A DNA stretch of 64,000 nt from Anseongella ginsenosidimutans. Lineage in GTDB: Bacteria; Bacteroidota; Bacteroidia; Sphingobacteriales; Sphingobacteriaceae. Both the position numbers and the translations under genes were made by a program. The stretch covers positions 1 through 64,000 of the forward strand of contig NZ_CP042432.1 of assembly GCF_008033235.1 (NCBI RefSeq). Reading direction: 5' to 3'. Shown one piece after another: positions 30,471 to 33,471 of this stretch. Within the stretch, counting starts at the first letter, position 1. Every line of letters begins with the position of its first letter. The notes below the pieces were generated by a model that searched no databases, was not told the origin of the DNA, and was given only the letters and a program-made list of their open reading frames with translations.

Positions 30471-31925
30471 TTAAATCAAATCATTATGTTCAAGCAATAG
30501 CACGTTTTCCACATGCGTGGTATGAGGGAACATGTCAACCGGCTGAATACGGCTTACCTTGTATAGCTCCTTCAGGATCAACAGGTCCCTGGCCTGGGTG
30601 GCCGGGTTGCAGCTAACATACACTATTTTCCGCGGAGCGATCTCCAGCAGGCGGCTCACCACCCCCGGATGCATGCCCGCCCTTGGCGGATCAGTAATGA
30701 TCACGTCGGGACGGCCGTTAGTGGCCACAAACTCTTCCGTAAGCACGTCTTTCATGTCGCCGGCGAAAAAGGCCGTGTTCCCGGCGCCGTTAAGAAGAGC
30801 GTTCTCCCGTGCATCCAGAATAGCAGGCTCCACGTATTCTATCCCAATCACCGAATCCACCTGTTTTGCAATAAAATTTGCAATAGTTCCCGCGCCCGTA
30901 TAGAGATCGTACACCTTTTCATTGCCGCTGAAGCCCGCAAGATCGGATACTACCTGGTAAAGCCGCTCCGCCTGCCGGGAATTGGTCTGATAAAAAGACT
31001 TAGGGCCAATTTTAAACCTTACCGCGCCGCCGGGGGCTTCCATCTGCTCAATGATATGGTCTCTTCCGTTCCATACCCGAACTTCCTGATCATATATCGT
31101 ATCGTTCAGCTTCCGGTTAATAATGTAAAGCAGGGAGGTGATCTCCGGGAACTCTTCCTTTATATGATCCAAAAGAGCGGAAACGGCCTGGGGCTGGTCA
31201 TCTGCGAATACAACGATCACCATGAGTTCACCTGTGGAAGTACTCCGGATGATCAGGTTCCGGAGAAGCCCGGTATGTCCCCTCAAATCATAGAATGTCA
31301 TTGCATTATCCAGGGCGAACTGCCTTACGGCGTTGCGTATGCGATCGGATAGCCCGCTTTGCAGGTGACAGGTATCGATGTTGATGATCTTGTCAAAGCG
31401 GCCCGGAACGTGAAAACCCAGCGCGTTGGCGGTGTTTTCCGGCGGGTTGGCTGTGCTTTCCTCCCCACCGCCAGACATTTCCGCCGCGGACAGCCAGCGG
31501 CGGTTGGAAAAAGTAAACTCCAGTTTATTCCGGTAATAAACCGTTTCGGGAGAAGGAATAATAGGCGAAATATGACTGGCATCGATTCCTGCCAGTCGTT
31601 GCAAGGCATCGCTTACCTGTTTTTGCTTGTAGATCAATTGCGCCTGGTAATCCAGGTGCTGCCATTTGCATCCGCCGCAGACGCCGAAATGCAGGCAGAA
31701 GGGGTCCCTTCTATGTTCCGACTCTTTTTCCAGCCGGCTGATGCGGCCTTCAAAGAGTGATTTCTTTCTGCGCAGCAGCTCCACATCAGCGACATCGCCC
31801 GGTATGGCTTTATCTATAAAAAGCACCCGTCCTTCCGATTTCCCAATGCCTCTTCCATCTTCCGTAATATCAATGATCTCCAGCCCTTTTACCTGTTCCG
31901 GCTGCTTTAACCTGCGAATTGCCAT
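30471..31925 (-). CDS. rlmD: 23S rRNA (uracil-C5)-methyltransferase, RumA/RlmD family
   Basis: 484 residues. A TRAM domain (about 1-60) precedes the iron-sulfur cysteines (CLHFGVCGGCKWQHL, plus Cys in NIDTCHLQ) and the SAM-binding methyltransferase domain: VYDLYTGAGTIANF, DPPRAGMHPGV, the catalytic cysteine in VSCNPATQARDL and the base VDMFPHTTHVE. Such enzymes methylate U1939 or U747 of 23S rRNA; which one cannot be told here. The start ATG at 31925 is preferred over one six codons upstream because TATCTTTG (31930-31937) lies just before it. Confidence 0.92.
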   Translation of the reverse strand: MAIRRLKQPEQVKGLEIIDITEDGRGIGKSEGRVLFIDKAIPGDVADVELLRRKKSLFEGRISRLEKESEHRRDPFCLHFGVCGGCKWQHLDYQAQLIYKQKQVSDALQRLAGIDASHISPIIPSPETVYYRNKLEFTFSNRRWLSAAEMSGGGEESTANPPENTANALGFHVPGRFDKIINIDTCHLQSGLSDRIRNAVRQFALDNAMTFYDLRGHTGLLRNLIIRSTSTGELMVIVVFADDQPQAVSALLDHIKEEFPEITSLLYIINRKLNDTIYDQEVRVWNGRDHIIEQMEAPGGAVRFKIGPKSFYQTNSRQAERLYQVVSDLAGFSGNEKVYDLYTGAGTIANFIAKQVDSVIGIEYVEPAILDARENALLNGAGNTAFFAGDMKDVLTEEFVATNGRPDVIITDPPRAGMHPGVVSRLLEIAPRKIVYVSCNPATQARDLLILKELYKVSRIQPVDMFPHTTHVENVLLLEHNDLI

Positions 31926-31929
31926 GTTG

Positions 31930-31937
31930 CAAAGATA
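31930..31937 (-). promoter_or_regulatory. -7-like element abutting the rlmD start
   Basis: TATCTTTG on the minus strand matches TAnnTTTG and ends 4 bp before the ATG at 31923-31925. No TTG stands at the right distance. If active, the transcript would begin at or next to the start codon. Confidence 0.4.
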
Positions 31938-31990: not shown

Positions 31991-32031
31991 AAAATTAAAA
32001 AACCCCGTCTCAACGGGCGTTGAGATCGGGG
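31991..32031 (-). terminator. intrinsic terminator
   Basis: The stem CCCCGTCTCAAC (32003-32014) with GTTGAGATCGGGG (32019-32031), one bulge, 4-nt loop, is followed on the minus strand by a T-rich run (complement of 31991-32002). It ends the candidate RNA unit at 32032-32212 and lies upstream of rlmD. Confidence 0.85.
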
Positions 32032-32212
32032 CTAACCTAAACCAATATATATGAAAACAAAAACCTTATATCAAACTAAACTATCTCAAAAACCTGTTTA
32101 TCTTAATAACGCCCAAACCTGCTAAATTGTTTTCTTTAATTTTATTTTTTCAGAAAATCACCCCTTGTTGCCTTTACTGACCTCTCAGGGTACTTCTTTA
32201 GTGGTTTTGGAG
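31991..32212 (-). ncRNA. candidate structured small RNA (6S-like) or attenuated leader
   Basis: A transcription unit of about 215 nt with its own consensus promoter (32216-32246) and terminator (31991-32031) but no open frame of note. It can fold: ATCTCCAAAAC (minus, 32214-32204) pairs with GTTTTTGAGAT (32093-32083) with one mismatch, closing a loop of about 110 nt; inside, CTGA-GAGG-UCAG makes a hairpin (about 32173-32184). Length, free-standing promoter and terminator, and a long closing stem resemble 6S RNA; alternatively it is an attenuator for rlmD. I do not recognise SRP RNA, RNase P RNA or tmRNA motifs in it. Confidence 0.55.
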
Positions 32213-32215
32213 ATG

Positions 32216-32246
32216 CAAAAATAATCAAAAACACACATTTTCCAAA
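32216..32246 (-). promoter_or_regulatory. consensus promoter of the candidate small RNA
   Basis: TATTTTTG (32216-32223) with TTTG (32243-32246) and exactly 19 bp between them on the minus strand: a perfect match to the phylum consensus. Transcription should start at about 32209-32212. Confidence 0.8.
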
Positions 32247-32363
32247 GCGAAACTTTAAATTTTGTGTAAAATAATTGTTAATAAGGCAGAGCCGCAACCA
32301 AATCAGGAAACATAAATTTCCCTATCATCAAGCTAATTAATGAAAAGGCAGCTAATATTATTA

Positions 32364-33401
32364 TTAAACAATCTCCGATTGGAATTGCGAGAGAAAGCGA
32401 ACGTCATTTTCAGAGAACAAGCGCAGGTCCGTTACCTGGTATTTCAGGTTTGTTATTCTTTCAATTCCCATGCCAAAGGCAAAGCCCGAATAACGTTCAG
32501 GATCGACCCCGCAATTTTTCAACACATTCGGGTCTACCATTCCACAGCCCAGTATTTCCACCCATCCGCTTTGCTTGCACATGGTGCAGCCGGAGCCCTT
32601 ACAGATAGTACAAGATATATCCATTTCCGCAGAAGGCTCTGTAAAAGGAAAATAGGAGGGTCGGAACCGTACGCCCGTACCTTCGCCGAAGAGTTCCTGC
32701 ACAAAGTAAAAAAGGGTTTGCTTCAGGTCGGCAAATGAAACATGTTCGTCTACATATAATCCTTCCACCTGGTGGAAAAAGCAATGTGCCCGGGCGGAAA
32801 TAGCCTCATTACGATAAACGCGGCCGGGCATAATGGCCCGGAAAGGTGGCTTGCCGTTCTCCATCAACCGAACCTGAACGGACGAGGTATGCGTGCGAAG
32901 GGCCATGTCTGCCTTGGGATCGGCCGGATCCCGCCGGATAAAAAAGGTGTCCTGCATGTCGCGGGCAGGGTGTTCCGCCGGAAAATTCAGCGCCGAAAAA
33001 TTATGCCAGTCATCCTCTATTTCCGGTCCCTCTGCTACATTAAACCCAAGGCGCGAAAAAATAGCGGTGATCTCCTTTTCCACCAGGGAAATAGGATGCC
33101 TTCCTCCCGTCGGAGAAGGTTCGCCCGGCAGGCTCAGGTCTTCCTGCTTCCCTTGCCCGGAAGCCCTTCCGGCGCCCGCTTTGAACGTTTCCACTTTTTC
33201 CGCTGCAGCCTGTTTCAGCACGTTCAGCGATTTCCCAAGGACTTTCTTTTCTTCCGGCGGAAGAGATTTAAATGTATCAAACAATGCAGGGATGATCCCT
33301 TTCCGGCCCAAAAACCGGATCCGGAACTGCTCGGCCTCTTCCCCGGAAGCAGGCACGAACGCATTGATCTCTTCTAGATAGGACTGAATTTTTTCCAGCA
33401 T
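32364..33401 (-). CDS. pheS: phenylalanine--tRNA ligase alpha subunit
   Basis: 345 residues, normal. An N-terminal coiled coil (about 1-85) is followed by the class II catalytic core: HPISLVEKEI, EGPEIEDDWHNFSALN, ARDMQDTFF, LRTHTSSVQVR, PGRVYRNEAISARAHCFFHQVEG in shortened form as motif 2, CTICKGSGCTMCKQSGWVEILGCGMV and motif 3 GFAFGMGIERI. The zinc-like CxxCxGxGCxxC segment is common in Bacteroidota PheS. Start at 33401; nine codons upstream do not fit. pheT is not nearby. Confidence 0.96.
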   Translation of the reverse strand: MLEKIQSYLEEINAFVPASGEEAEQFRIRFLGRKGIIPALFDTFKSLPPEEKKVLGKSLNVLKQAAAEKVETFKAGAGRASGQGKQEDLSLPGEPSPTGGRHPISLVEKEITAIFSRLGFNVAEGPEIEDDWHNFSALNFPAEHPARDMQDTFFIRRDPADPKADMALRTHTSSVQVRLMENGKPPFRAIMPGRVYRNEAISARAHCFFHQVEGLYVDEHVSFADLKQTLFYFVQELFGEGTGVRFRPSYFPFTEPSAEMDISCTICKGSGCTMCKQSGWVEILGCGMVDPNVLKNCGVDPERYSGFAFGMGIERITNLKYQVTDLRLFSENDVRFLSQFQSEIV

Positions 33402-33405
33402 GGCG

Positions 33406-33413
33406 CAAAGATA
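33406..33413 (-). promoter_or_regulatory. -7-like element abutting the pheS start
   Basis: TATCTTTG on the minus strand ends 4 bp before the pheS ATG (33399-33401), the same geometry as at rlmD. The nearest TTG is 25 bp upstream, too far for the ideal. Confidence 0.4.
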
Positions 33414-33471
33414 ATTAAACTGCATCACTCTGTTCAGCCAATCGCCTGCTTTTTCCTATTTTTACCCCTGA

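Follow-up and report, generated by a model that had tools for sequence, protein, structure and literature searches.

The locus under study lies on the minus strand of the window, by which we mean the whole 64,000-nucleotide stretch of DNA analyzed here, between pheS (32364..33428, minus strand), which we take, from recognition of its sequence, to encode phenylalanyl-tRNA synthetase alpha and of which all 61 family genomes searched have a homologue, and the downstream neighbor rlmD (30471..31925, minus strand), whose name is carried over from a preliminary description of this DNA and for which 75 of 76 family genomes have a homologue. Reading from pheS toward rlmD, a conserved A/T-rich block, ATTTTACACAAAATTTAAAG (32253..32272), possibly an UP-like element or a regulator site, directly precedes a consensus match to the Bacteroidota-type promoter, TTTG-N19-TATTTTTG (32216..32246, with TTTG from 32246 and TATTTTTG ending at 32216). 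The block is identical in the second genome of the same genus (hereafter G001, the genome of the window being G000; all comparisons within the genus concern these two). With its start placed from the promoter, a putative ORF-free small RNA of about 214 nt would span 31997..32210. Its parts, all on the minus strand, are the 5' end CCAAAACCA (32202..32210), predicted from pair probabilities to be the partner of the seed (UGGUUUAGG); a hairpin, P2 (GAAG.ACCCU ... AGGGGUGAUUUUC; 32153..32196), whose pairs are kept relative to G001; a 3' block, UUUUUGUUUUCAUAUAUAUUGGUUUAGGUUAG (32032..32063), which is complementary to a translation start and is the same in G001 save for the first base; the seed UUGGUUUAGGUUAG (32032..32045), whose core, GGUUUAGGUUAG, is found again before hairpins elsewhere in the genome; and a strong intrinsic terminator, CCCCGAUCUCAACGCCCGUUGAGACGGGGUUUUUU (31997..32031). 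The sequence thus bears out the promoter, the ORF-free stretch of 200 nt and the terminator where the preliminary description had placed them.

Its characterization of the promoter requires revision on two points. The promoter is not unique in the window, being one of four matches to the pattern TTTG-N18-20-TAnnTTTG, and its class is that of the Bacteroidota and not sigma-70, for which a scan returned only a weak site (32281-32252). Since the shuffles of the window themselves reach up to four matches (30 shuffles, mean 1.1, largest 4), the motif count is by itself not significant.

An equivalent unit was found in the same place in G001 (75% identity over 297 bases, E 1.1e-47), where the promoter (TTTG-N19-TAATTTTG at the equivalent position), the terminator, the upstream A/T-rich block, the hairpin, the pairing of the 5' end with the seed and the 3' block are all kept. 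It is this preservation at the same place, promoter and terminator included, that speaks for more than a chance arrangement. The terminator of G001 differs by one compensatory change, from U-A to C-G; indels of 1, 2 and 7 nt between the two genomes break the reading frames across the small RNA, the 5' half of which is poorly conserved. The window RNA folded better than most of its shuffles (z -2.78, 2 of 200 being equally good), and a 211-nt piece of the G001 RNA, taken without the first few nucleotides, better than all of them (z -3.36, 0 of 200). All ten outer pairs of hairpin P2 are kept between the two genomes, four of them having changed on one side and one on both sides, with none broken. 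When the two RNAs were folded separately, the 5' end was predicted to pair, its AACCA meeting a UGGUU close to the 3' end, with probabilities of 0.65-0.78 in the window and 0.66-0.90 in G001. This is the pairing of the 5' segment with an inner 3' segment noted beforehand, a stem that extends over nine positions, with eight pairs and one mismatch between CCAAAACCA and UGGUUUAGG, and not eleven. The 3' side of this stem is invariant in the two species, hence its lack of covariation; the covariance in relatives that had been proposed as a check is thin, coming from two genomes of the genus, with 5 of the 10 kept pairs of P2 changed and none in the closing stem. A DNA search with the whole RNA across 41 genomes returned G001 alone, apart from weak short matches. 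When the two homologues were made into a covariance model (R1) and 76 family genomes were searched with it, it recovered the two source genomes, plus two weak hits of E 0.05 and 0.065 that we take as noise.

The unit thus has its own promoter and terminator, no ORF, conservation within the genus and no Rfam match at the gathering score, the combination expected from sequence of a stand-alone small RNA, and the locus is likely a free-standing non-coding RNA gene, for which the earlier label of an unnamed small RNA remains apt. The preliminary description had also compared it with 6S RNA and had offered a regulated leader of rlmD instead; the RNA is probably neither. The likeness to 6S RNA (RF00013, RF01685) resides in the length of about 200 nt and in the pairing of a 5' with a 3' segment into a long closing stem, and no 6S RNA was found in the genome. 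However, the suggested search with the 6S covariance model gave no match at the site, RF00013 being found in 0 of 21 genomes (its control matched in 5 of 14 known genomes); the search with RF01685 (6S-Flavo; 0 of 41 genomes) says little, since its control was silent everywhere. Relaxing the Rfam search to E 10 produced four chance-level matches at the RNA (E 0.41 to 9.1), all far below the cut-offs and none of them 6S. The ends of the RNA are also not predicted to pair into a single rod that opens in a central bubble: the closing stem is formed by the 5' end and the conserved seed-like stretch, and so contains the seed, further hairpins lie inside it, the separate terminator hairpin stands outside it, and no central promoter-like bubble was recognized. 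Together with the poor conservation of the 5' half, these features make a 6S RNA of this lineage very unlikely. As to a leader, the RNA does lie on the same strand as rlmD and upstream of it, at a distance of 71 bp (31925 versus 31997) in place of the 66 bp given before. Against this reading, the strong terminator stands between the RNA and rlmD, and rlmD has a promoter box of its own, the -7 box TATCTTTG of the TAnnTTTG type (31930..31937, minus strand), 4 nt 5' of its ATG. The same holds across relatives, with a TAnnTTTG box 4-8 nt before the next ATG at 30 of 34 rlmD loci (L139-L168, L023, L024, L029 and L030, of which L023 and L156 are apparently one genome), and we consider a regulated rlmD leader very unlikely.

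The family, which includes Hufsiella and Parapedobacter (their sequences agree with G002 and G060), was examined for what occupies the same place. Out of 80 pheS loci searched for rlmD, five contained it, and 12 loci (L023-L034) were inspected further; in the relatives inspected, pheS is followed by other genes, with rlmD at a greater distance. In the four genomes of genus g5, the region running from a gene that we take to be TetR-like to rlmD contains a promoter, a gene of 36 amino acids (41 in G005) and then ATAAATTGGTTTAGGTTGAGCCCC with a terminator, the 3' module that the window RNA also has. Here and below, the names TetR, SusC-like, lipoprotein, RND efflux, metX and LacI were assigned by recognition of the sequences and are presumptive. 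With a cut-off of E 0.1 the microprotein (35-37 amino acids, MSRExxxFSxxIDExFD...GFxxFIxRLF) was detected in 37 of 76 family genomes, and with E 0.001 in 35; in 31 of these 35 it is encoded at most 1.2 kb upstream of rlmD; L148, L165, L156, L154 and L158 are among the loci with this arrangement. Pfam returned nothing for it at E 0.1, and no NCBIfam model came near its cut-off. Its promoter carries, over the -33 region (L148, L158, L162, L165), an imperfect palindrome such as ATACCGTTTTGGTTTTTGGTAT, which may be the operator of the TetR-like gene located upstream in g5 and Hufsiella.

In neither G000 nor G001 did the microprotein profile (A4) find a match, and for the TetR of g5 and Hufsiella there were only distant ones (best 33% over residues 4-84). 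Since these two genomes are without the microprotein, the place that holds a coding unit in relatives is taken in the window by a non-coding RNA. We also considered that the window RNA might be a microprotein gene whose start had been overlooked, and rejected this, as the predicted transcript contains no ATG, indels break the frame and profile A4 remains silent. It could instead be the degenerate remnant of a TetR-microprotein unit, of which the gene was lost in this genus and the promoter and terminator were left. The silent profile and the distant TetR matches are consistent with such a loss, and so is the element TTGGTTTAGGTT-AGCCCC: 6 of 301 family genomes carry a single copy of the pattern TTGGTTTAGGTTN{0,2}AGCCCC, always upstream of rlmD (no more than 0.3 kb away in four, at about 1 kb in G005 and G073), with no occurrence of the reversed control. 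A remnant would, however, hardly be expected to keep a promoter, the pairs of a hairpin and an invariant block of 31 nt between species whose pheS proteins are 87% identical, and we regard this origin as improbable.

The longest invariant stretch within the RNA consists of UUUUGUUUUCAUAUAUAUUGGUUUAGGUUAG and the start of the terminator. The complement of UUUUGUUUUCAUAUAUAUUGGUUUAGGUUAG is CUAACCUAAACCAAUAUAU-AUG-AAA-ACA-AAA and resembles a start region, and in the first 464 kb of G000 sequences of this kind were observed 5' of start codons, many of them of exported proteins. To this were later added 400 kb more of G000 and 400 kb of G001, with 400 kb each of G016, which is without the module, and of G045, a member of g5, as controls. 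Genes were defined as the longest ATG ORFs of at least 100 amino acids, some starts being therefore wrong, and start regions as -35..+12; the tested seed, AUUGGUUUAGGUUAG (without CAU), was compared with permuted seeds of matched composition, and exported-like proteins were designated by a crude hydrophobicity test.

Exact 8-nt matches to the complement of AUUGGUUUAGGUUAG were present in 15 of 648 start regions of G000 (4.67 expected; 21 of 1000 permutations reach 15) and in 9 of 299 of G001 (2.12 expected; 6 of 1000), compared with 5 of 304 in the control G016 (3.44 expected; 265 of 1000) and 9 of 305 in G045 (3.56 expected; 68 of 1000). An earlier run of 500 permutations, made without G001, had given 5 for G000, 134 for G016 and 27 for G045, the reversed seed having 7 matches in G000. 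Matches of 9 nt numbered 7 in G000 (4 of 1000 permutations), 2 in G001 (102), 2 in G016 (195) and 3 in G045 (84). Exported-like proteins accounted for 12 of the 15 8-nt matches of G000 (mean of the permutations 2.15; 3 of 1000) and for 3 of the 9 of G001 (36 of 1000). The first half of G000, with 9 matches in 350 start regions (17 of 1000 permutations), had itself suggested the idea of pairing and is not an independent test of it, so the independent support comes from G001 and, weakly, from the later half, where 6 of 298 matched (2.19 expected; 71 of 1000), four of them exported (42 of 1000), and the reversed seed gave 5. When all windows of 15 nt along the whole RNA were scored against the start regions, with permutations of matched composition, the best 12 of 199 in G000 and the best 12 of 206 in G001 all overlapped the 3' block, with the proviso that windows containing CAU are favored by the ATG present in every start region.

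The difference in duplex energy between exported and other genes was matched by 0 of 200 shuffles in G000, 3 in G001, 0 in G016 and 14 in G045; because exported leaders match the seed equally well in G016, a genome without the RNA, part of the seed signal reflects the general composition of leaders. SusC-like genes were few (7 in G000, 4 in G001, 2 each in G016 and G045), and 12, 0, 104 and 53 of 200 shuffles, respectively, reached their value. The number of strong duplexes was reached by 4 of 60 shuffles in G000, 12 in G001, 6 in G016 and 13 in G045 (for the exported subset by 0, 4, 6 and 24 of 60), and these counts do not separate the RNA-bearing genomes from G016 and G045. Complementarity to start regions is enriched in G000 and G001, and it is in part a general property of leaders.

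From the anatomy of the locus, its conservation in two species, the absence of an Rfam family and the statistical complementarity, we infer transcription, pairing in the cell, repression and the targets as follows. A stand-alone minus-strand RNA would be made from the Bacteroidota-type promoter and ended by its own terminator; its 3' block would cover, in several mRNAs of the CUAACCUAAACCAAUAUAU-AUG-AAA-ACA-AAA type, mostly for exported proteins, both the leader and the start codon, and would thereby keep ribosomes from starting on them. In the predicted fold the seed is partly paired; the 5' end of the RNA itself would sequester it in part, through AACCA and UGGUU, and this might set how readily targets are found. 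A base-pairing small RNA that blocks the translation of several, mostly exported, proteins is the mechanism that the sequence supports best, and we advance it tentatively, at somewhat below an even chance. The RNA might alternatively be a stand-alone structured RNA that binds a protein, in which case its 3' block would resemble start regions through a shared bias of A/C-rich leaders. Folding better than shuffles, the preservation of hairpin P2, the presence of the leader bias in the control genome G016 and the weak enrichment in the later half of G000 all fit such an RNA; its longest invariant part, however, is the 3' block and not P2, and the core of that block is found again before other hairpins, which leaves protein binding a somewhat unlikely explanation. 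There is little likelihood, in our view, that the region is a short gene of the plus strand with the hairpin in its leader. Here AACCTAAACCAATATAT-ATG opens an ORF of 24 amino acids (32051-32125, plus strand; MKTKTLYQTKLSQKPVYLNNAQTC), which reads as 26 amino acids in the alignment with G001 and ends at the same TAA, so that the start, the first four codons and the position of the stop are kept while indels of 7 nt and 1 nt compensate. Yet the protein is not conserved past MKTK, a strict promoter scan returned zero plus-strand matches in the window, the T-run lies on the minus side, and it is the minus-strand promoter that is conserved.

The base-pairing mechanism has a counterpart in the FopS RNAs of Bacteroides, which, as outlined in PMC11697453, bind the start regions of SusC mRNAs and block their translation. 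According to the same outline, FopS/GibS of Bacteroides thetaiotaomicron are likewise small RNAs of Bacteroidota, FopS with a canonical Bacteroidota promoter, a seed and a terminator; there are several paralogues per genome, one of them derived from a 3' UTR, and the seed is complementary to the start regions of SusC-like and other mRNAs (PMC11697453). FopS is described as being about 65-70 nt long with its seed (R1/R1') at the 5' end, whereas the window RNA is about 214 nt long and its seed is 3'-proximal, beside the terminator, and partly held by the 5' end. FopS was not among the four chance-level Rfam matches at E 10, a result that would count only if this Rfam copy includes FopS. By description, the window RNA can also be likened to Rfp18 and other small RNAs of Flavobacterium psychrophilum, presented in PMC9723704 as independent, genus-conserved transcripts of Bacteroidota with predicted mRNA pairing. 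Pedo-repair, the published Pedobacter RNA introduced in PMC2864571, was absent among the Rfam matches of the window RNA. Searches of the open-access literature yielded studies of small RNAs in Bacteroides and Flavobacterium and none in Sphingobacteriaceae. Bacteroidota ribosomes are described as initiating without Shine-Dalgarno pairing (PMC6847099, PMC9976891). If the proposed role of the seed is right, many exported and outer-membrane proteins would be tuned at their start codons by this RNA or by a few such RNAs, in a lineage without Shine-Dalgarno pairing; CUAACCUAAACC is the start motif concerned. The 1063-aa gene of L247 and the 1132-aa gene of L248 are among the leading candidate targets.

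Genome-wide, the 13-nt complement of the seed with at most one mismatch had 13 sites in G000 and 12 in G001, where the controls had 3 and 4, and 27, 39, 33 and 33 sites in the g5 genomes G005, G045, G061 and G073 (controls 27, 29, 9 and 22). Inspection covered all 12 non-window sites of G000 and, in G001, 8 of the 11 further sites. The seed complement lies 1-14 nt before an ATG at L240, L238, L230, L225, L229 and the second L222 site. Other sites show the core GGTTTAGGTTAG when the opposite strand is read: at L232/L234 and L233/L235 it stands 5' of a hairpin, with CAT just upstream, and is kept in both genomes; a third conserved GGTTTAGGTTAG locus, L226/L227, likewise before a hairpin, has a conserved TACCTTTG box at 102-111 nt on the upstream side and, farther downstream, a terminator with a T-run. 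A stretch of 144 nt at L232 folds with z -4.24 and is predicted to leave the seed open, the seed being only 0.36-0.40 unpaired with other flanks; L233/L235 follows the end of an efflux-type gene, in its 3' UTR, with the seed predicted to be 0.14-0.35 unpaired. L232/L234 (about 1171305 of contig C1 in G000) and L226/L227 (about 808587) are highly conserved and combine the GGTTTAGGTTAG core with hairpin terminators, and from their sequence both are candidate small RNA genes.

In sampled stretches, GGTTTAGGTT with at most one mismatch was followed by a terminator in 4 of 44 cases in G000, 3 of 24 in G001, 0 of 36 in G016 and 2 of 64 in G045. The corresponding figures were 3 of 54, 3 of 35, 0 of 97 and 0 of 67 for the motif reversed, and 1 of 35, 1 of 22, 1 of 35 and 0 of 31 for a third motif. 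Any family therefore rests on single conserved loci and not on these counts. It would be a family at the level of the genus, comprising the window RNA, L232/L234, L226/L227 and the 3' UTR L233/L235, that carries a generic complement of the start consensus of exported genes, partly an anti-start codon, and acts on a class of starts and not on single mRNAs, one member having arisen at, or been exchanged with, the microprotein gene; we find this extended reading rather doubtful. Rfam at E 0.1 assigned nothing at eight sister loci, L221 and L222 included, except pieces of group II intron in L226. These are matches to intron domains (RF02001 and RF01998) at L226 690-1002, minus strand, close to the candidate RNA in G000. 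At L221/L222 the core is present, though not 5' of a terminator. These two loci share a conserved TGGTCTAACCTAAACCAGT and a hairpin with a T-run, upstream of a presumably metX-like gene.
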